This document shows, in pieces, positions 1 to 10,798 of a stretch of 12,867 bases of DNA. The notes under the pieces are model-generated. The model saw nothing but the letters and a program-made list of their open reading frames with translations. It was not told the DNA's origin and did not search any database. Source of the stretch: Arcobacter sp. UBA7394. GTDB lineage: Bacteria > Campylobacterota > Campylobacteria > Campylobacterales > Arcobacteraceae. How positions within the stretch are numbered: the first letter of the stretch is position 1; the number at the start of each line of letters is the position of its first letter. The translations under genes were made by a program, and so were the position numbers. Where the stretch lies: the NCBI GenBank assembly GCA_002470185.1, contig DKNG01000153.1, positions 1 through 12,867 of the forward strand, written 5' to 3'.

Positions 1-196
1 TATTTTAACAATTGCATTTAATCCTAGTGTATTAGGAACATTAACTGGTGAGGGTGTTATGACAATTGCATTCCCAGTTGCAGCTGCAATTATTGTAGTA
101 AGTTTTTTTACAACATTAGTTTATGTTAAAAGAGCAAACGGTGAGTTTGAAGATTTAACAAATGAAGTAAAAAATGATGTAAAGGATTTATTATAA
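1..196 (+). CDS. yjcH: DUF485 (YjcH-type) membrane protein, first copy, 5' end missing
   Basis: This is the C-terminal 64 residues of a DUF485 family inner-membrane protein; the start lies before the window and the first complete codon begins at position 2. It aligns without gaps to the C-terminal part of the complete copy at 2395-2709. Shared stretches include ILTIAFN, VISF/VVSF, TTL(V/I)[14 protein letters not shown] and the ending DVKDLL. One membrane segment lies around the [20 protein letters not shown] stretch, followed by the charged RANGEFE tail typical of E. coli YjcH. In E. coli, yjcH sits between acs and actP; its biochemical role is not established. The TAA stop overlaps the ATG of actP by one base (TAATG), so the two are probably translationally coupled. 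Whether acs precedes this gene cannot be seen. Confidence 0.93.
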
Positions 197-1845
197 TGTT
201 AAAAATATTAGCACTACTTTCTGTATTCGCTGTGGCAATGTTTGCTGCTGGTGATGCAAACTTTGAAGCAACAAAAAGAGAATTAAATATTCCTGCGATT
301 ATTATGTTCTTTATCTTTGTGGGTGGTACTTTAGGTATTACTTACTGGGCTGCGAAGAGAACAAAATCTGCTAGTGATTTCTATACTGCAGGTGGAGGAA
401 TTTCTGGTTTCCAAAATGGTATGGCAATTGCGGGTGACTATATGTCTGCTGCATCTTTCTTAGGTCTTTCAGGTTTAGTATACCTAAAAGGTTATGATGG
501 ATTAGTATATGCTGTTGGATTCTTAGTAGGTTGGCCAGTAATTTTATTCTTAATGGCTGAAAAATTAAGAAACTTAGGTAAATTTACATTCGCTGATATT
601 GCAGCATATAGATTAGGTCAAAAAGAGATTAGATCTCTTGCTGCTTCTGGTTCTTTAGCAGTTGTTACTTTATATCTTATTGCACAAATGGTTGGTTCTG
701 GAAAATTAATTCAAGTATTATTTGGTTTAGAATATGAATATGCAGTTATCCTTGTTGGAGTTATGATGATTGTATATGTTACTTTTGGTGGTATGTTAGC
801 AACTACTTGGGTACAAATTATTAAAGCAGTATTACTTCTTTCTGGTGTAACTTTCATGGGTTACATGGTATTAAGTCACTTTGGATTCTCATTTGAAGCA
901 TTAGCAACAAAAGCTGTTGAAACTCATACTTTAGGTCAAGATATTATGGCACCTGGAGGATTTATATCCGATCCAATTTCCGCAATTTCACTTGGTCTTG
1001 CATTAATGTTAGGTACTGCGGGTTTACCTCACGTTCTTATGAGATTCTTTACTGTTGGAAATGCAAAAGAAGCTAGAAAATCTGTTGTTTATGCAACTGG
1101 ATTTATTGGTTACTTCTACTTAGTTATTGCTATTATCGGTCTTGGAGCAATTGTATTCTTAAACTCTCCAGAAGGTCAAGGGTATTTTGTTGATGGTAAA
1201 TTATTCGGTGGAAATAATATGGCTGCAATTCACTTATCACATGTTGTTGGTGGAAATGTATTCTTAGGATTTATTTCAGCTGTTGCATTTGCTACTATTT
1301 TAGCAGTTGTTTCTGGTCTTACTCTTGCAGGTGCATCTGCAATTTCACATGACCTTTATGCATCTGTTATTAATACTAATGCTACTGAAGAGCAAGAAAT
1401 TGCTGTATCAAAAAGAGCTACAATTGCAATTGGTGTAATTGGTGTTGTATTAGGTATTGCTTTTGAGCATCAAAATATTGCATTTATGGTTGGTCTTGCA
1501 TTTGCTATTGCGGCATCTGCTAACTTCCCAATTTTATTCTTATCAATTTACTGGTCTAAGTTAACAACTAGAGGAGCATTCATTGGTGGATTCTTAGGAT
1601 TACTTACTGCGGTTGTTCTAGTAATTTTAGGTCCTGTTGTATGGGTATCTGTTTTAGGAAATGCTGAAGCAATTTTCCCTTATAAACACCCTGCACTATT
1701 CTCAGTATCTGTTGCATTCCTTGGTATTTGGTTCTTCTCAATTACTGATAAATCGCAAAGAGCAAAAGATGAAGTTAAAGCTTTTGAAGCACAAAGTGTT
1801 AGAGCTGAAACTGGAATCGGAGCTGACGGAGCTGTTGATCACTAA
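196..1845 (+). CDS. actP: Cation/acetate symporter ActP, first copy
   Basis: This is a sodium:solute symporter (SSS family, LeuT fold) that imports acetate with a cation across the inner membrane. It is 549 residues, the same length as E. coli ActP, and is collinear with it as I remember that protein. A signal-like hydrophobic stretch at residues 1-18 ends in FAAGDA, followed by about 13 membrane segments. Family landmarks are [20 protein letters not shown] (about 64-83), [15 protein letters not shown] (198-212), [15 protein letters not shown] (273-287), [10 protein letters not shown] (338-347), the [12 protein letters not shown] segment with [10 protein letters not shown] (361-382), SHDLYA, and [10 protein letters not shown] (444-453). 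The ATG overlaps the TAA of the DUF485 gene, fixing the start by coupling. A hairpin follows the stop. Assignment to the ActP family is firm; exact substrate preference among short monocarboxylates is inferred. Confidence 0.96.
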
Positions 1846-2298: not shown

Positions 2299-2331
2299 TG
2301 CTATTCTACTGCTACATAAAAGATTAGTAAT
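2299..2331 (+). promoter_or_regulatory. Direct-repeat regulator box and -10 element upstream of yjcH2-actP2
   Basis: TGCTAT at 2299-2304 and TGCTAC at 2310-2315 are direct repeats with an 11-bp period. Exactly 10 bp later is AGTAAT (2326-2331), a 4/6 match to TATAAT. The same arrangement occurs before pta (8498-8530) with a perfect TATAAT. Hexamer direct repeats one helical turn apart, overlapping the -35 position, are typical of OmpR/PhoB-type response regulators. The identity of the regulator is unknown. Confidence 0.55.
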
Positions 2332-2394: not shown

Positions 2395-2709
2395 ATGAAC
2401 AGCGAATTAGTAGAAAGGATAGAGTCGAATCCTAAGTATCAAGAACTTGTTTCTAAAAGAAATAGTTTTGGTATTAAACTTGGGGTTTTTGTACTAGTTA
2501 TGTTTTATGCATTTATTTTAACAATTGCATTTAACAAAGAAGTGTTAGCTACAAAAATTGGTGATGGTCTTACAACAGTGGCATTTCCTATTGCATTAGC
2601 AATATTAGTAATCAGTTTTATCACAACTCTTATTTATGTAAAAAGAGCAAATGGTGAATTTGAAGACTTAACAAATGATATTAAAGATGATGTAAAGGAT
2701 TTATTATAA
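2395..2709 (+). CDS. yjcH: DUF485 (YjcH-type) membrane protein, second copy
   Basis: This is a 104-residue DUF485 family protein, the same length as E. coli YjcH as I recall it. The N-terminus [22 protein letters not shown] is the usual amphipathic entry. Two membrane segments follow, around residues 26-46 ([18 protein letters not shown]) and 60-82 ([20 protein letters not shown]), then the conserved [10 protein letters not shown] motif and an acidic tail ending DVKDLL. The start at 2395 is chosen over an in-frame ATG at 2362 because it has an AAGGAAG ribosome binding site four to five bases upstream and begins exactly where the family does; the eleven extra residues from 2362 look like leader sequence. 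The TAA stop overlaps the actP2 ATG by one base. Members of this family are paired with ActP-type symporters; the role is unproven but an accessory part in transport is plausible. Confidence 0.94.
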
Positions 2710-4358
2710 TGTTAAAAATTTTAGCAATTATTTCAATAATAGCTTTAAGTGCATTTGCTGCGGGTGATGCATCTTTTGAAGCGACAAAAAGAGAACTTAA
2801 TATTCCTGCGATTATTATGTTTTTTGCTTTTATTGTTTTTACTTTAGGATTAACAGTTTGGGCTGCAAGAAGAACAAAATCAGCAAGTGATTTCTATACT
2901 GCTGGTGGTGGAATTACAGGTTTCCAAAATGGTTTAGCAATTGCTGGAGATTATATGTCTGCTGCTGCATTCCTTGGAGTATCGGGTTTAATTTACTTAA
3001 AAGGTTATGATGGAGTTATTTATGCTGTATCATTCTTAGTTGGTTGGCCAATTATTTTATTCTTTATGGCTGAAAAGTTAAGAAACTTAGGTAAATTTAC
3101 ATTTGCTGATATTGCTGCATACAGATTAGGTCAAAAAGAGATTAGAACTCTTGCTGCGTTTGGTACTATTTCTGTTGTTGTTTTATATTTAATTGCACAA
3201 ATGGTTGGTGCTGGAAAACTTATTCAAGTATTATTTGGTATGGAATATGAGTTTGCAGTAATTCTTGTTGGTGTAATGATGATTATCTATGTAACTTTTG
3301 GTGGTATGCTTGCAACTACTTGGGTACAAATCATTAAGGCGTGTTTATTACTTTCTGGTGTATCTTTCATGGCAATCATGGTTTTATACCAATTTGACTT
3401 TAACTTCGAATCTTTAGCTGTTAAAGCTGTTGAAAATCATACTGCTGGTGAGTCTATTCTTGCACCTGGTGGATTTATTTCTGACCCTATTTCTGCTATT
3501 TCTTTAGGTATGGCATTAATGCTTGGTACTGCTGGTTTACCACACGTACTTATGAGATTCTTTACAGTTGGTAATGCTAAAGAAGCTAGAAAATCTGTTG
3601 TTTATGCAACTGGTTTTGTTGGTTATTTCTGGATTATTATTACTATTGTTGGTTTTGGTGCAATTGCATTCTTAAACTCAGCAGAGGGAGCACAGTATTT
3701 TGTAGATGGTAAATTATTTGGTGGAAATAATATGGCATCAATTCACTTATCACATATGTTAGGTGGAAACGCATTCTTAGGATTTATTTCAGCTGTTGCA
3801 TTTGCTACTATTTTAGCAGTTGTTTCTGGTCTTACTTTAGCAGGTGCATCTGCTATTTCACATGACCTTTATACAAATGTAATTAATCCAAAAGCTACTG
3901 ATGAGCAAATTGTAAAAATTTCAAGAATTACGGTTGTAATTGTTGGTATTGTTGGAGTTACTTTAGGTATTGCGTTTGAAGAGCAAAATATTGCATATAT
4001 GGTTGGATTAGCATTTGGTATTGCTGCATCTGCAAACTTCCCAATCTTATTCTTATCTATTTATTGGAGAGGATTAACTACAAGAGGTGCATTCTTAGGT
4101 GGTTTAGCTGGTTTATTAACTGCTGTAACACTTGTAATTGTTGGACCAATTGTATGGGTTTCTATTTTAGGAAATGAAGAAGCTTTATTCCCTTACAAAC
4201 ACCCTGCGCTATTCTCAGTAACTGTAGCATTTGTTTCAATTTGGTTCTTCTCTAAAACAGATTCATCTGAAAGAGGAAGAAACGAAAAAGAAATGTTCAG
4301 AGCACAAAATGTTAGAGCAAACACAGGTATTGGTTCAGCGGGAGCAGTTGATCACTAG
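2709..4358 (+). CDS. actP: Cation/acetate symporter ActP, second copy
   Basis: A second 549-residue SSS-family acetate symporter, colinear with the first copy without indels and by eye about 80% identical in protein. It keeps all family landmarks: [20 protein letters not shown] (64-83), [27 protein letters not shown] (273-287), [37 protein letters not shown] and [10 protein letters not shown]. The N-terminal MLKILA and C-terminal GAVDH are also shared. Differences cluster in the N-terminal signal-like segment, the loop at about 230-255 and the cytoplasmic tail. At the nucleotide level two blocks (3579-3613 and 3773-3836) are identical to the first copy while flanking synonymous sites differ, suggesting gene conversion. 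It is translated with the DUF485 gene through the TAATG overlap. The two copies may differ in affinity or regulation; this cannot be read from the sequence. Confidence 0.96.
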
Positions 4359-4558: not shown

Positions 4559-6400
4559 ATGAGTATATTAGAACAAAAAACTTTTTTGACATCAATTCAT
4601 CCCTTTGAACATTTGAATAAAGTTCAACTAGAAACATTTGCGGAAAATATTGATATTGTTTATTTTAAAAAAAATGAAGTATTGCAAAAACAAGGAAGTG
4701 AACCAACACATCTATATTTTGTATTAAAAGGTATCGTTCAAGAAACATTAAATGATGAAGTACTTTCAATTTTTTCGAAGAATGAAATATTTGATCCAAT
4801 TTCACTTGTTGAAAACTATTCGAAACATACATTTGTTACAGCACAAGAAACAATTTGTTATTCACTGCCTAGAGAAATCTTTATTAAAACATTACATGAA
4901 AATGTTGAATTAGAGAGTTTCTTTTTTCAGACTATTTCTCAAAAATTAAATAATCATATCAATCAAGAAAAAAATAAAGATATGGCAAATATCATGGTTG
5001 CAAAAATTAAAGATGCCCAAATACATCCTGCTGTAATTATTGATACTGAAAAAACAATTTTTGAAGCAGCTACAATAATAAAAAAAGAGAAAGTACCAAC
5101 AGTATTATTAAAAGACCAAGAAGGTGAAATGTACATTGTTACTGATTCAGATTTTAGACAAAAGGTAATTTTAAATAGAATGGACTTTGATGATAAAATT
5201 GTAAAAATTGCATCAAAAGGTTTAGTTTATGTAAATGAAAATGACTTCTTATTTAACGCTCAACTTATAATGGCAAAACATGGGCTAAAAAGAGTTGTAG
5301 TAAAAAATAATAAAGGAGAAATAATAGGTATTCTTGATCAGATATCTTTATCTTCTTTCTTTGCAACTAACACATTTTCAGTATCTAATGAAATTGTAAA
5401 AGCTGAAACAGTAGAAGAGTTAAAAGCAGCATCCCTTTCTTTTATGAAAATCATTAAATCACTTAATGCAAAAGGTGTAAAAATAGAATTTATTTCTAAG
5501 CTAATTAATCAATTAAATAGAAAACTTCTAAATAAACTTTACAATATTTTAGCACCAATTCAACTGCAAGGTAAATCTTGTTTAGTTGTTATGGGAAGTG
5601 AAGGAAGAGGAGAACAAATTCTTAAAACAGACCAAGATAATGCTTTAATCATTGATGATGATTGTGAAATTACGGATGAAGAATTACAAACATTTACAAA
5701 TAAATTCACAGATACATTAGTTGATTTTGGTTTCCCTAGATGTGAAGGTAATATTATGGTATCAAACCCATACTGGTGTAGAAGAAAATCTGATTTTAAA
5801 GATTTAATTTATTCATGGGTAAATGAACCAAATCCTGATAACTTAATGAATGTGGCAATTTTCTATGATTCTGTTTGTGCATCAGGTGATATTGATACAA
5901 TACTAGAACTAAAAGAATACCTATTTAAAGCAGGTGGTGATTCACAAGCATTTAAATCTAATTTTGCAAAAGTAATTATGAATTTTGATGTACCTTTAGG
6001 GTTCTTTGATGGATTTGTATTTGATAGTGCTAACAATGATCATAAAAATGAGCTTGATATTAAAAAAGGTGGTATATTCATATTAGTACAAAGTGTTAGA
6101 GCTTTAAGTTTAGAGAAAAAACTATTTAATACTAATACAAATAAAAGAATTAAAGTATTAACAGAACAAGGTGTGTTTGATGATGAGTTTGCACAAGAGT
6201 TAATAATGGCATTTAATTTCTTATCAAATTTAAAATTAAAATCAAACCTTGAGAAACTTGATAAAAATGAGATTATTGATAATTATATTAATCCAGATAA
6301 TCTAAATACTATGCAAAAAGATTTATTAAAAGATTCATTTAAAATCATTAATAAACTAAAGAAAAAATTAGAATATCATTTTAAGTTAAACTATGTTTAG
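4559..6400 (+). CDS. Cyclic-nucleotide-binding-like / CBS / DUF294 nucleotidyltransferase signalling protein
   Basis: A 613-residue cytoplasmic multidomain protein of the COG2905 type. Residues about 10-130 form a CAP_ED-like (cyclic nucleotide binding) fold, about 145-270 a pair of CBS domains, and about 285-440 a GlnD-like DUF294 nucleotidyltransferase. The latter has GSEGRGEQ at 346-353 and the metal-binding pair in TDQD (D358, D360). Residues about 460-605 are the DUF294 C-terminal substrate-binding-like helical domain. The phosphate-binding cassette of the first domain looks degenerate: around residues 75-97 the usual GE and R(S/T)A residues are missing. Its substrate is unknown; uridylyl or adenylyl transfer to a protein is a possibility by analogy with GlnD. 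It overlaps the following exonuclease gene by 8 nt. Such proteins are, from memory, frequent neighbours of actP-type transporters, pointing to a role in acetate or nitrogen/energy signalling. Start supported by GGAAG at 4548-4552. Confidence 0.9.
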   Translation: MSILEQKTFLTSIHPFEHLNKVQLETFAENIDIVYFKKNEVLQKQGSEPTHLYFVLKGIVQETLNDEVLSIFSKNEIFDPISLVENYSKHTFVTAQETICYSLPREIFIKTLHENVELESFFFQTISQKLNNHINQEKNKDMANIMVAKIKDAQIHPAVIIDTEKTIFEAATIIKKEKVPTVLLKDQEGEMYIVTDSDFRQKVILNRMDFDDKIVKIASKGLVYVNENDFLFNAQLIMAKHGLKRVVVKNNKGEIIGILDQISLSSFFATNTFSVSNEIVKAETVEELKAASLSFMKIIKSLNAKGVKIEFISKLINQLNRKLLNKLYNILAPIQLQGKSCLVVMGSEGRGEQILKTDQDNALIIDDDCEITDEELQTFTNKFTDTLVDFGFPRCEGNIMVSNPYWCRRKSDFKDLIYSWVNEPNPDNLMNVAIFYDSVCASGDIDTILELKEYLFKAGGDSQAFKSNFAKVIMNFDVPLGFFDGFVFDSANNDHKNELDIKKGGIFILVQSVRALSLEKKLFNTNTNKRIKVLTEQGVFDDEFAQELIMAFNFLSNLKLKSNLEKLDKNEIIDNYINPDNLNTMQKDLLKDSFKIINKLKKKLEYHFKLNYV

Positions 6401-7013
6401 AATCATAAATAATTACTTTGGAAAAAAAAGGCTAAAAGACCAAAATTACTCTTATCTTTTTGATAAACCACATGAAGATGAGTATGTATGTTTTGATTGT
6501 GAAACAACAGGATTAGATCCAAAAAAAGATGATATTATCTCAATTGGTGCAGTTATTATAAAAAATAACATGGTTATATCTAGTAAAAAATTTGTAAGAT
6601 TTGTAAAACCTAAAACAAAACTACAAGCAGATGCAATAAAAATTCATCACATACGTGAGTGTGATCTTGAAGATGCAGATGATATAAATAATGTAATTGA
6701 AGAGTTTATTGATTATATCGGAAATAGAACTTTAGTTGGTTATTTCTTAGAATTTGACATTTCTATGATTAATAAATATTTAAAACCAAAAATTGGTATT
6801 AAACTTCCAAATAAAGCTTTAGAAGTTTCTGAAATTTATTATGATTATAAAATAGAAAAAATACCCCAAGCAAATATTGATCTTAGATTTGACACAATCA
6901 TGGAAGATTTGGATATTCCAGTAATGGGTAAACATGATGCATATAATGATGCATTAATGACTTCTTTAATTTTTATTAAGTTAAAAAACTTACCAAAAGT
7001 AAAAATAAAGTAG
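6393..7013 (+). CDS. DnaQ-like DEDDh 3'-5' exonuclease
   Basis: A 206-residue RNase T/DnaQ superfamily exonuclease, resembling the epsilon subunit of DNA polymerase III but standing alone. ExoI is FDCETTGL with D35 and E37; ExoII is VGYFLEFD with D122; ExoIII is HDAYNDAL with H181 and D186, giving the full DEDDh catalytic set. ExoII lacks the HN of the commoner VGHNVxFD form. An N-terminal extension of about 30 residues precedes the domain. The ATG lies inside the end of the preceding gene (8-nt overlap) with no good ribosome binding site of its own, so translational coupling is likely. The cellular substrate is unknown; it is probably not the replicative proofreading subunit, given its length and location beside a DUF294 nucleotidyltransferase gene and acetate genes. 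This pairing suggests the two act together. Confidence 0.9.
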   Translation: MFRIINNYFGKKRLKDQNYSYLFDKPHEDEYVCFDCETTGLDPKKDDIISIGAVIIKNNMVISSKKFVRFVKPKTKLQADAIKIHHIRECDLEDADDINNVIEEFIDYIGNRTLVGYFLEFDISMINKYLKPKIGIKLPNKALEVSEIYYDYKIEKIPQANIDLRFDTIMEDLDIPVMGKHDAYNDALMTSLIFIKLKNLPKVKIK

Positions 7014-7094: not shown

Positions 7095-8282
7095 ATGTTA
7101 GTATTTATTTTAAATGCAGGTAGTTCATCATTAAAGTATCAATTAATGAACCCTGAAACTACAGAAGTTTTAGCTTCTGGACTTTGTGAAAGAATTGGTA
7201 TTGATGGAAGATTAGTACATGAAGCTAATGATTGTAAAACAAAAAAAGATTTATCTATGCCTACTCATAAAGAGGCAATTGAAATTGTTTTAGATGTTTT
7301 AACACAAGGTGAAAATAAAGTTATTGATTCAATTGAAGATATCGACTCAATTGGCCATAGAGTTGTTCATGGTGGAGAGTATTTTTCTTCTTCAGTTATT
7401 ATTGATGAAGATGTAATTTCAAAATTAAAAGAGTTAATACCTTTAGCTCCATTACACAATCCAGCTCATATTATTGGTATTGAAATTTGTAAAGAATTAA
7501 TGCCTTCAAAACCAAATGTAGCAGTATTTGATACAGCATTTCATCAAACAATGCCAGCTAGTTCATTTATGTATGCTGTTCCATATGAAGATTATAAAGA
7601 ACATAAAGTAAGAAAATATGGATTCCATGGAACTTCGCACTCTTATGTATCTAATCAAGCAAAACAAATGTTAAATAAAGATGATTCAAAAGTTATCGTT
7701 TGTCACTTAGGTAATGGTTCTTCAATTTGTGCAGTTAGAGACGGAAAATCAATTGATACTTCAATGGGACTTACACCTCTTGAAGGTTTAATGATGGGTA
7801 CTAGATCAGGAGATTTAGATCCTGCTGTTATATCTTACTTAATGGAAAGAAAAGATATGACTGCAAATGAAATGACTAACTACTTAAATAAAAAATCTGG
7901 TTTACTTGGAGTATCTGGTATTTCATCTGATTTAAGAGAAATTATTGAAGCTGCTGCAAATGGTGATGAAAGAGCAAATACAACTATTGATATGAAATGT
8001 AATAGAATTAAAAAATACATTTGTTCATATGCAGGAATGTTAGAAGGTGTTGATGCTATTTGTTTCACTGCTGGAATTGGTGAAAATGCAGATTTAATTA
8101 GAGAAAGAGTTTGTTCTGGTTTAGAATTTATGGGAGTTGAAATTGATAATGAAAAAAATCAAGTTAGAAACGATCAAAATAGAGAAATCAATAAAGAAAC
8201 ATCTAAAACAAAAATCTTTGTAATTCCTACTAATGAAGAATTAGTAATTGCTAAAGATACTTACAATTTAACAAAAGCGTAA
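7095..8282 (+). CDS. ackA: Acetate kinase, first paralogue
   Basis: A 395-residue acetate kinase (ASKHA fold) that interconverts acetate plus ATP and acetyl phosphate plus ADP in the cytoplasm. Family motifs are all present: NAGSSSLKYQ (N7), GHRVVHGGE (R89), PLAPLHNPA, FDTAFHQTMP (D146), RKYGFHGTSH (H178), HLGNGSS (204-210), MGTRSGDLDP (R237), FTAGIGENA (324-332) and IPTNEE (E381). These correspond to the catalytic Asn, Arg, Asp, His, Arg and Glu known from Methanosarcina AckA. The start has TAAGGA at 7081-7086, 8 nt upstream. The gene has its own promoter region with Pho-box-like repeats and its own hairpin at the end, so it appears to be a separate transcription unit from pta. By eye it is about 60% identical to the second AckA at 9596. 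Its role may be acetate activation or acetyl phosphate control under particular conditions. Confidence 0.97.
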   Translation: MLVFILNAGSSSLKYQLMNPETTEVLASGLCERIGIDGRLVHEANDCKTKKDLSMPTHKEAIEIVLDVLTQGENKVIDSIEDIDSIGHRVVHGGEYFSSSVIIDEDVISKLKELIPLAPLHNPAHIIGIEICKELMPSKPNVAVFDTAFHQTMPASSFMYAVPYEDYKEHKVRKYGFHGTSHSYVSNQAKQMLNKDDSKVIVCHLGNGSSICAVRDGKSIDTSMGLTPLEGLMMGTRSGDLDPAVISYLMERKDMTANEMTNYLNKKSGLLGVSGISSDLREIIEAAANGDERANTTIDMKCNRIKKYICSYAGMLEGVDAICFTAGIGENADLIRERVCSGLEFMGVEIDNEKNQVRNDQNREINKETSKTKIFVIPTNEELVIAKDTYNLTKA

Positions 8283-8497: not shown

Positions 8498-8530
8498 TGC
8501 TACTTATATGCTACGGTTTTGAATTATAAT
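8498..8530 (+). promoter_or_regulatory. Direct-repeat regulator box and -10 element of pta-ackA2
   Basis: TGCTAC at 8498-8503 is repeated at 8509-8514 (11-bp period), followed after exactly 10 bp by a perfect TATAAT (8525-8530). No TTGACA-like -35 is present at the right distance; the second repeat lies next to the -35 position. The transcript would start near 8537 with a leader of about 30 nt. The motif and spacing repeat those upstream of yjcH2-actP2 (2299-2331), pointing to one shared activator, probably an OmpR/PhoB-family response regulator. Confidence 0.65.
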
Positions 8531-8565: not shown

Positions 8566-9561
8566 ATGGGTTTAATTGAAAGCATAAAAGAAAAAGCAAA
8601 ATTACAGTTAAGAACAATTGTTCTTCCAGAGTCTGAAGATGAAAGAGTATTAAAAGCTGCTCAACAAGTTTTAGATGAGAAAACAGCAAATGTTGTATTA
8701 ATTGGAAATGAAGAAACTATTAAAGCTGATGCAGCAGCTTGTGGTGCATTTATTGATGGAGCAACAATTATTGATCCTAAGAAATTTGATAAGATTGATA
8801 CATATATAGATGAATTAGTTGAATTAAGAAAGAAAAAAGGTTTATCTAGAGAAGAAGCTACTGAAATTATGACTACTGAGCCAAGATTCTTTGGTTGTAT
8901 GATGGTTAGACTTGGAGATGCAGACGGTTTAGTAGCCGGTTCTAATTCACCAACTGCTGACGTATTAAAAGCAGCAATTCATGTAATTAAAACTGCACCA
9001 GGAATCAACACAGTATCATCTGCGTTTATTATGGAAACAGCTGATGGTAAATTTGGAGACAATGGTCTTATTTTATTTGCAGACTGTGCAGTAATTCCAG
9101 AGCCAAATGCAGAGCAACTAGCGGATATCGCTTGTGCAACAGCAGCAACAGCTAGTTCAGTGGTTGGACTTGATCCTAGAGTTGCTATGTTATCTTTCTC
9201 AACAAAAGGAAGCGCAAAACACCCATTAGTTGATAAAGTACAATATGCAGTTGATTTATTAGAAGAAAGAAATGTTGATTTCTCTTTTGATGGTGAAATG
9301 CAAGCAGATGCAGCTATCGTTGAAGCAATTGGAGCTAAAAAAGCACCAGGTTCAGAAGTAGCTGGAAAAGCAAATGTATTAGTATTCCCTGACTTACAGT
9401 CTGGAAATATTGGATATAAATTAGTACAAAGATTCGCAGGAGCACAAGCTCATGGACCAGTTGTTCAAGGTTTAGCAAAACCGGTTAATGACTTATCTAG
9501 AGGATGTTCAGTAGAAGATATCGCAAATTTAGTTGCAATTACTGCAACTCAAATCAAATAA
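8566..9561 (+). CDS. pta: Phosphate acetyltransferase (phosphotransacetylase)
   Basis: A 331-residue class I phosphotransacetylase, the short form with only the PTA_PTB catalytic domain. It converts acetyl-CoA and phosphate to acetyl phosphate and CoA, reversibly, in the cytoplasm. Landmarks are TIVLPESEDERVLKAA (17-32), TTEPRFFGCMMVRLGDADGLVAG (103-125), MLSFSTKGSAKHP (208-220), FDGEMQADAAIV (241-252), NVLVFPDLQSGNIGYKLVQR (270-289) and GPVVQGLAKPVNDLSRGCS (297-315), which contains the substrate-binding Ser/Arg of DLSRG (R312). The ATG has AAAGGA 7-8 nt upstream. It is followed 34 nt later by ackA2, with no terminator between, so the two form a pta-ackA operon. It is the only pta in the window and would serve both acetate kinases. 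Confidence 0.97.
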   Translation: MGLIESIKEKAKLQLRTIVLPESEDERVLKAAQQVLDEKTANVVLIGNEETIKADAAACGAFIDGATIIDPKKFDKIDTYIDELVELRKKKGLSREEATEIMTTEPRFFGCMMVRLGDADGLVAGSNSPTADVLKAAIHVIKTAPGINTVSSAFIMETADGKFGDNGLILFADCAVIPEPNAEQLADIACATAATASSVVGLDPRVAMLSFSTKGSAKHPLVDKVQYAVDLLEERNVDFSFDGEMQADAAIVEAIGAKKAPGSEVAGKANVLVFPDLQSGNIGYKLVQRFAGAQAHGPVVQGLAKPVNDLSRGCSVEDIANLVAITATQIK

Positions 9562-9595: not shown

Positions 9596-10798
9596 ATGTT
9601 AGTATTTATTTTAAACGCAGGAAGTTCATCATTAAAGTACCAATTAATGAACCCAGTTTCAAAAGAGACTTTAGCAGTAGGACTATGTGAAAGAATCGGA
9701 ATTGATGGAGTTATCAAACATGAATTTGGTGAAGATCAAAAGCTTAAATTAGAAGTTTCTATGCCAACTCACAAGGAAGCAATTGAGTTAGTATTAAAAA
9801 CTTTAACTGATGGTGAAGGTTCTGTTATCAATTCTGTTGATGATATTGATGCAATTGGACACAGAGCTGTTCATGGTGGAGAAGAATTCGCTGGTTCTGT
9901 TATGGTTACAGATAAAGTAATTAATAAAATGAAAGAATTAATTCCTTTAGCTCCATTACACAACCCAGCAAATATTATGGGTATGGAAATTTGTCAAGAT
10001 TTAATGCCTGGTAAACCAAATGTTGCTGTATTTGATACTGCATTCCACCAAACTATGCCTGATTATGCATATATGTATCCACTTCCATATGAGCAATACA
10101 CTAAAAATGGTGTTAGAAAATATGGATTCCATGGTACTTCTCACTTCTTCGTATCAAATGAAGCAGTTAAAATGTTAGATAAAAAACATAATACTAGAGT
10201 AATCGTTTGTCACTTAGGAAATGGTTCTTCTGTTTCTGCTATCTTTGATGGTAAATGTATTGATACTTCAATGGGACTTACTCCTGTTCAAGGTTTAATG
10301 ATGGGAACTAGATCTGGAGATATTGGAGCAGGTGCTATTCAATACATGATGGATACTGAAGGTTTATCAATCAAAGAAATGTTAAATGTACTTAACAAAG
10401 AATCTGGAATTGTTGGTATTTCTGGAAAATCATCTGACTTAAGAGAAGTTCTTGAAGGTATGGAAGATGGTGATGATAGATGTAGATTAGCAGTTGATAT
10501 GATTGCTTACATTATCAAAAAATACGTTGGTTCATATGCTGCTGCACTTGATGGTGTTGATGCATTATGTTTCACAGGTGGTATTGGTGAAAATGCTGCA
10601 TTAATTAGAGAAAAAGTTTGTGCTGGTTTAGATTACATGGGATTAAATATTGACCCAACTAAAAATAACAAAAGATCTGGTGAAGCTAGAGATATCTCTA
10701 CTAATGGTTCATCTGGTAGAATTTTTGTTATTCCTACAAATGAAGAGTATGTTATCGCTAATGATACTTACAAAATCGTTTCTGGAATTTCTGAGTAA
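9596..10798 (+). CDS. ackA: Acetate kinase, second paralogue (pta operon)
   Basis: A 400-residue acetate kinase and the likely operon partner of pta, making or using acetyl phosphate. Motifs are N7 in NAGSSSLKYQ, GHRAVHGGE (R90), PLAPLHNPA, FDTAFHQTMP (D147), RKYGFHGTSH (H179), HLGNGSS, MGTRSGD (R239), FTGGIGENA and IPTNEE (E383), so the catalytic set is complete. The conserved DP that follows TRSGD(I/L) in most family members, including the first paralogue (D242, P243), is replaced here by GAG (244-246). AAAGGAAG lies 7 nt before the ATG. The first 60 nt are almost identical to those of ackA1, while the rest is diverged to about 60% protein identity by eye, arguing for an old duplication. 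A strong terminator follows. Confidence 0.97.
   Translation: MLVFILNAGSSSLKYQLMNPVSKETLAVGLCERIGIDGVIKHEFGEDQKLKLEVSMPTHKEAIELVLKTLTDGEGSVINSVDDIDAIGHRAVHGGEEFAGSVMVTDKVINKMKELIPLAPLHNPANIMGMEICQDLMPGKPNVAVFDTAFHQTMPDYAYMYPLPYEQYTKNGVRKYGFHGTSHFFVSNEAVKMLDKKHNTRVIVCHLGNGSSVSAIFDGKCIDTSMGLTPVQGLMMGTRSGDIGAGAIQYMMDTEGLSIKEMLNVLNKESGIVGISGKSSDLREVLEGMEDGDDRCRLAVDMIAYIIKKYVGSYAAALDGVDALCFTGGIGENAALIREKVCAGLDYMGLNIDPTKNNKRSGEARDISTNGSSGRIFVIPTNEEYVIANDTYKIVSGISE

Follow-up and report, generated by a model that had tools for sequence, protein, structure and literature searches.

The 12,867-nt window analysed here corresponds to contig C141 in a draft genome (G000) of 2.54 Mb and 268 contigs. It aligns with Arcobacter, Aliarcobacter and Campylobacteraceae records at ~68–82 % nucleotide identity over long stretches, which places it in the Arcobacter group. 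Its genes include those for acetate permeases, acetate kinases and phosphate acetyltransferase (Table 1). The first 60 bases of the window are found close to the end of contig C125, and the order is contiguous in the nearest relative, G009. Outside the window, contig C125 encodes an OmpR-type response regulator (RR1, G000:C125:5539–6201). Both actP and ackA are doubled in the cluster, and the genes at window positions 4559–7013 likewise have two copies, one after a symporter gene (G000:C125) and one after actP2.

Table 1. Genes and predicted promoter elements of the window
Feature	Position	Strand	Details
DUF485–actP1 operon, cut at window start	2..1845	+	its box outside, G000:C125:413–429
TGCTAT-N5-TGCTAC operator box (predicted), DUF485–actP2 operon	2299..2315	+	begins 96 bp upstream of DUF485 start codon; identical in nearest relative G009
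AGTAAT, proposed -10 of actP2, doubtful	2326..2331	+	G009 has AGAAAT
DUF485 small subunit of ActP2 permease	2395..2709	+	PF04341
actP2 cation/acetate symporter (SSF)	2709..4358	+	PF00474; NF006903 867.5 bits, cut-off 750
cNMP-binding/CBS/DUF294 nucleotidyltransferase gene	4559..6400	+	domain search
DnaQ-like exonuclease gene	6393..7013	+	PF00929
ackA1, second acetate kinase gene	7095..8282	+	PF00871
TGCTAC-N5-TGCTAC operator box (predicted), pta–ackA2	8498..8514	+	conserved upstream of pta orthologues
TATAAT -10 hexamer of pta	8525..8530	+	exactly 10 bp after box; kept in 29/30 pta orthologues
pta, phosphate acetyltransferase	8566..9561	+	PF01515
ackA2, acetate kinase 3' of pta	9596..10798	+	PF00871

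Pattern search of the window located TGCTAT (2299–2304) and TGCTAC (2310–2315) followed by AGTAAT on the actP2 side, and two copies of TGCTAC (8498–8503 and 8509–8514) followed by TATAAT on the pta side, exactly at the coordinates and with the 11-bp period given in a preliminary description of this DNA. With up to three mismatches allowed, the complete promoter pattern matched the window at these two sites alone (0.02 matches expected from shuffled sequence). The bare 17-mer gave 12 matches at the same tolerance versus 7.7 expected, a number reached by 17 of 200 shuffles and hence not clearly unusual. The preliminary description had also read AGTAAT as a -10-like element of actP2. This assignment is doubtful because the hexamer is not conserved in G009, despite an identical box there, and few actP genes have a -10 element 10 bp past the box (N10). 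The actP2 box itself stands; only its claimed -10 falls.

Searches with exact or few-mismatch patterns found 14 exact copies of TGCTAY-N5-TGCTAY, hereafter the box, in G000, and no match to the reversed pattern. Free-spacer TGCTAY pairs in G009 numbered 91, versus four for the reversed pattern. The reversed-pattern control was set aside as over-lenient, because TGCTAY is a favoured coding word, and a scan of spacer lengths was used in its place. In two single-contig genomes (G084, 59 of 59 matches; G022, 91 of 94; 150 of 153 tallied), the N5 spacer occurred 23 times. The remaining 14 spacers of 0–22 that are not divisible by three averaged 0.79 occurrences and never exceeded 2; spacers divisible by three, which keep coding phase, had a mean of 14.5. 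The frequency of the motif at this spacing is thus well above chance, an observation that the preliminary description had understated. Exact boxes numbered 14, 13, 13 and 10 in four fully fetched relatives (G009, G003, G011 and G022, respectively), and 48 of these 50 lay outside ORFs of at least 60 codons, with a few overlapping the end of an ORF. Among 93 sites compared for promoter structure (ten of the 14 in G000, with L001, L002, L010 and L012 left out, and all 83 in L104–L163), four were inside an ORF.

The preliminary description had suggested scanning genomes for the promoter motif. A scan of 257 Gb with one genome per species, from which records very near G000 may be missing, gave 17 exact matches to TGCTACN5TGCTACN10TATAAT, mainly from Campylobacterota (13 in records so titled). 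By reading of the translations, ten of the 17 precede a DUF4212 symporter gene (six), pta (three) or a satP-like gene (one). One match each lies before a chemoreceptor-like gene (Sulfuricurvum), a chloride-channel-like gene and, in a metagenome-assembled genome (L201), an NADH-dehydrogenase-like gene, while one (L198) has no downstream ORF in the available stretch. The remaining three appear fortuitous: one in Lysinibacillus, which falls within an ORF, one in Cytophagales and one in Rickettsiaceae.

Conservation was assessed upstream of pta orthologues selected at the protein level, regardless of the motif. All 30 orthologues closest to the window, of 74 matches listed, had a box (29 exact, one with a single mismatch) starting 57–72 bp before the start codon, and in 29 of these 30 TATAAT lay exactly 10 bp past it. 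Among base-shuffled pta upstream sequences, 0.1 % came within one mismatch of the box; on the opposite strand the best match always had at least three. Four further loci yielded three pta upstream sequences, two with an exact box (G072 and G080; L218 and L220) and one with a one-mismatch box (G017; L163), and L221 yielded none. RR1 loci, also chosen by protein, had a box no more than 260 bp after the stop codon in 23 of 26 cases (22 exact, one with one mismatch), with TAnnnT at N10 in 22 of 26; in G025 an exact box lies just past the 260-bp range, 255 bp on. For actP, 26 DUF485 starts were obtained from 24 sources, while some other sources gave none; within 230 bp of these starts, 16 had an exact box and five a one-mismatch box, mostly without a retained -10 at N10. 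The box is therefore conserved before orthologous pta and actP small-subunit genes (21 of 26 for the latter, at no more than one mismatch), as the preliminary description would have it. Chance repetition in AT-rich DNA would fit the three-mismatch 17-mer of the window, and two of the 13 sites in G011 lie inside ORFs, but against the spacer control, the box at 30 of the 30 closest pta orthologues listed and the concentration of strict promoters in Campylobacterota this explanation is as good as refuted. The box is almost certainly a functional operator.

Target genes differed in whether a -10 element lies at N10. The N10 geometry was present at ten of 11 pta boxes, 11 of 11 symporter boxes and five of five aapJ boxes (counts that include G000 and its near relative G009); the one pta box without it is the upper member of an overlapping pair in L145. 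No -10 was found at N10 at most actP sites or at the lldP, satP, lutA-like and hydrogenase genes among the 93 sites compared. A repeat in the place of the -35 element at a fixed distance from the -10, as in class II promoters, was thus found at pta, after RR1 and at aapJ, and not at most actP genes. This agrees with the proposal, made in the preliminary description, that an OmpR/PhoB-family regulator would bind over the -35 region (29 of 30 pta upstreams, 22 of 26 RR1 loci and five of five aapJ sites). The promoters without an N10 -10, among them those of most actP genes and of the lldP, satP, lutA-like and hydrogenase genes, are of another class or under other control, and the box may act there in either direction. 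The strict spacing at pta, symporter and aapJ could also be explained if the box were a fixed element read by RNA polymerase as an unusual -35, without a regulator. However, a repeat-binding protein accounts better for the pair of equal half-sites at 11-bp distance, for arrays with three or four half-sites in tandem (L145 pta; L215) and for boxes that are conserved where no N10 -10 is present, which makes such an element very improbable. A second shared element with ACTTCAA lies downstream of the actP box in four stretches (L129, L247, L254 and L256) and may mark a different promoter or a co-regulator.

In G000, boxes precede actP1 (C125:413), actP2, pta–ackA and satP (PF01184). They also precede a DUF4212/SLC5 symporter gene (TIGR03647/TIGR03648 for the G009 copies), an amino-acid-binding protein gene (PF00497; aapJ by reading), a 4Fe-4S gene that reads like lutA/glcF, a GntR-like regulator gene and a molybdopterin oxidoreductase gene (PF00174; reads like soxC). 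Boxes of relatives were found before genes for lactate permease (TIGR00795), DctP (TIGR00787), fumarate reductase cytochrome b (NF010072), malate:quinone oxidoreductase (PF06039), hydrogenase small subunit (PF14720), an ABC ATPase and a protein with a Cache domain, a chemoreceptor by reading. G019 has a single pta match, of a long form; there, a gene for acetyl-CoA synthetase (domains ACAS_N and AMP-binding) is preceded by a box and N10-TATAAT. The shared boxes before actP and pta support the earlier suggestion that acetate uptake and activation are joined in one predicted regulon.

RR1 has a receiver domain (PF00072, 75.3 bits) and a DNA-binding domain (Trans_reg_C, PF00486, 40.3 bits), both above cut-off, and is thus of OmpR/PhoB type. 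The gene directly upstream of RR1 encodes its partner kinase, 98.5 % identical between G000 and G009; the G009 protein contains sCache_2 (98.6 bits), HisKA (PF00512, 30.9 bits) and HATPase (PF02518, 54.7 bits) domains, the latter two above cut-off. RR1, the box-bearing symporter and pta were present in all ten cluster loci first read, and actP in nine, with two actP operons in seven loci, one in two (G036 and G020) and none in G022. A complete kinase gene precedes RR1 in nine of the ten loci, and the tenth stretch (L156) begins inside RR1. In these clusters the kinase gene had no exact box upstream of it, and there is therefore no sign of self-regulation there.

Comparable arrangements were found in other families. 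The order kinase–regulator–box–DUF485–actP occurs in G055, where the box is exact and followed by N10-TACAAT, and in G050, where it has one mismatch. In G058 and G040 the regulator gene is followed by a one-mismatch box, then by a porin-like gene and actP. By our own estimate, such a gap would contain a one-mismatch box by chance with a probability of ~0.002. The kinases of G058 and G040 have an sCache_2 match and those of G055 and G050 have none. In a tree of the regulators, an RR1 clade (15 rows) and a FIST-linked clade (five rows) each had 100/99 support; the tree did not resolve the regulators of the other families, whose kinship to RR1 is therefore judged from gene order and, where the kinase type agrees, from that as well. 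Genomes in which RR1 was found (E <1e-100; n=69) had a median of nine boxes and those in which it was not found (n=18) a median of three (P=0.0015, ignoring kinship between genomes). This comparison drew on 89 of 90 genomes, G000 being left out, and G075 and G080 were set aside in a second comparison. Box and RR1 are not strictly coupled, which counts against RR1 as the reader. RR1 (72 %) is encoded in G010 and G029 with no box in the following 260 bp. Five genomes without a close RR1 still have boxes before actP (G014, G019, G021, G091 and G095), and two of these, G014 and G019, encode an RR1 relative of 53–55 % with an sCache_2 kinase.

RR2 and RR3 are paralogues with FIST-domain kinases, and most of the recognition helix of RR1 (TIRAEISRLKK) is shared by RR2 (TIRAEVNRVKK) and likewise by RR3. 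Beside RR2 in both G009 and G000 lie four GCTAT half-sites with an 11-bp period, the last of them 10 bp before TAAACT; in G009 this array is upstream of an aldehyde dehydrogenase gene (PF00171). As RR2 adjoins GCTAT repeats of like geometry, such repeats appear to go with this regulator subfamily. The first bases of the half-sites beside RR2 are a mixture of C, T and G, whereas GCTAY pairs have T in 29 of 29 cases at both half-sites before pta, and in 23 of 23 and 22 of 23 cases after RR1. Paralogues adjoining the same geometry with other first bases offer the best indirect argument that RR1 would read TGCTAY. The box might instead be read by RR2 or RR3, or by several overlapping regulators, with RR1 a neighbour or one input. 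The shared helix is compatible with this, as are the few boxes kept in genomes without a close RR1 and the case of G043, in which a FIST-linked regulator gene is followed by TGCTATN5TGCTATN10TATAAT and then an aldehyde dehydrogenase gene. However, it is RR1, not RR2, that is fixed at the acetate cluster, the array beside RR2 mixes first bases, and no exact or GCTAY box was found in the stretches around RR3 (L213) or the FIST-linked regulator of G012 (L219); a reader among these paralogues is unlikely on this evidence.

A regulator from outside the RR1 subfamily, such as BumR or another protein with a Trans_reg_C match, is improbable to a greater degree. G000 has 43 such OmpR-type DNA-binding matches, and one distant OmpR operon is itself preceded by a box that is kept in G009 and G011. 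Yet the regulator of that operon has 32 % identity to RR1 and a different helix, and none of the neighbourhoods fetched contained another regulator with like linkage to the box and to acetate genes. The box of this operon (G000:C169:4762–4778, L009; also L111 and L133) precedes genes for a small protein, an OmpR-type regulator not close to RR1 and a kinase, an arrangement that suggests a regulatory cascade. RR1 is considered the main reader of the TGCTAY box with a probability of roughly 0.72. The box, its spacing, its distance to the -10, the gene linkage and the conservation are observations; binding by RR1, the direction of regulation and the ligand are inferences.

The sensor domain of the RR1 kinase aligns with 2qhk, 4k08, 4exo and 5g4y. 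Of these, 5g4y (with 5g4z) is PscD with propionate, 4k08 holds acetate and 4exo pyruvate, as given in the PscD report, and in PscD four residues, Y90, H103, Y143 and K156, hold the carboxylate (PMC5062169). All four of these C2/C3-carboxylate contacts are kept in the kinase of G000, which was checked apart. Kinases were recognised in 15 of 20 further loci given, and the same four contacts occur in three of these 15 (L104, L115 and L129). The W145 of PscD is also kept in the G000 kinase and in these three, and F at 92 and Y at 94 agree with the 4exo domain. H103 is replaced in 12 of the 15 kinases and the pocket is absent from two, so the ligand may differ between lineages.

Several known systems resemble this one in part. 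BumS/BumR of Campylobacter jejuni, which the preliminary description named as a candidate, belongs to the same phylum and is likewise a two-component system, for short-chain fatty acids. BumS is reported to be a cytoplasmic PAS sensor phosphatase without the residues usually needed for autophosphorylation (PMC11796366). The kinase described here instead combines sCache_2, HisKA and HATPase domains, and no PAS domain was found in the G009 protein at E 0.001. On sensor architecture, BumSR is not supported as the regulator, and the better candidate is the pair of an sCache_2 kinase and an OmpR-type regulator encoded directly before a box in this cluster. CrbS/CrbR (MxtR/ErdR) of Pseudomonas and Vibrio also coordinates acetate permease and activation genes through two-component control; PMC5715377 describes CrbR as a LuxR-family regulator that acts via an imperfect inverted repeat with an ACTU motif. 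CrbS is reported to be fused to an SLC5 transporter. In contrast, the present system has an OmpR-type regulator (Trans_reg_C), a direct repeat and a Cache sensor, and identity with CrbS/R was rejected on regulator family and site symmetry. MctS of Rhizobium (PMC9100948) is a sensor kinase with a Cache domain, next to a monocarboxylate permease of the SLC5 type. The MctS model is the best NCBIfam match of our kinase, but at 113 bits versus a cut-off of 700, with the sensor half alone covered, the kinase falls far short of the MctS equivalog level.

The pho box is a direct repeat with half-site CTGTCAT and an 11-bp period that replaces the -35 element ~10 bp before the -10. RR1 has the same type of DNA-binding domain as PhoB and its putative operator a pho-box-like geometry, but the half-site is TGCTAY, and RR1 scores 73.6 bits against a PhoB-model cut-off of 296.2. 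Taken as a whole, the preliminary description is supported for the PhoB-like geometry and the single acetate regulon and not for BumSR and the actP2 -10.

A mechanism can be proposed in which TGCTAY-N5-TGCTAY is the operator of RR1, under the kinase with sCache_2 encoded just upstream. The half-sites, one helical turn (11 bp) apart, would present the same DNA face to a head-to-tail winged-helix dimer. At pta–ackA, the DUF4212/SLC5 symporter and aapJ, the box would stand in for the -35 element at a distance of exactly 10 bp from the -10. In this position, phosphorylated RR1 would most likely bring RNA polymerase to the promoter by class II activation. Activation at these three genes is likely by position. 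The most likely signal at the sensor is acetate, propionate or pyruvate on the outer side of the membrane; uptake (two ActP, SatP and the symporter) and activation (Pta–AckA) would then be switched on together, with co-induction of further organic-acid, amino-acid and other electron-donor genes.

OmpR-type two-component regulons are a known kind; literature searches over leading titles of open-licence papers found none on the regulon, operator or sensor pairing described here. For the Arcobacter group, the analysis supplies an operator sequence, a promoter geometry, a candidate sensor–regulator pair and a list of organic-acid targets. A wider and tentative reading, which we hold to be somewhat more doubtful than probable, is that a Campylobacterota OmpR-type subfamily shares one DNA code, GCTAY direct repeats with an 11-bp period that end 10 bp short of the -10, and has diverged in sensor and in first base. 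The sCache member would read TGCTAY and govern a global regulon for electron donors and organic acids (acetate, lactate, C4-dicarboxylates and amino acids, and in some genomes hydrogenase and sulfite oxidation), while FIST members would read G/C-GCTAT and run alcohol and aldehyde oxidation. If this split is true, the subfamily would be an independent counterpart of CrbS/R and the ethanol-oxidation regulators of Pseudomonas. Sister box and sister regulator make a natural pair in which to follow a change of winged-helix specificity.

Sister boxes, with GCTAT half-sites of other first bases, an 11-bp period and a -10-like hexamer at N10, were seen at G000:C123:8044–8128 (L294), G000:C105 (L212:256–294) and L215:4012–4050. 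Their settings were cytochrome c and solute-binding-protein genes opposite a divergent gene, and a FIST-kinase regulator with an aldehyde dehydrogenase gene. In G080 (G080:C1:642642–643297, L220), RR1 is frameshifted and the pta and symporter boxes remain.

Some conserved boxes have no same-strand start within 260 bp. In six stretches (L012, L106, L118, L127, L154 and L157) the box is accompanied by a conserved upstream stretch, and in L154 and L157 it sits after what reads like serS. Small RNAs sought at gene-less boxes gave no Rfam match at gathering score in ten sources, five of these six stretches included. In seven others (L001, L105, L126, L116, L140, L148 and L151), a small gene that reads as ribbon-helix-helix-like has a conserved box ~150 bp upstream, which points away from the gene.
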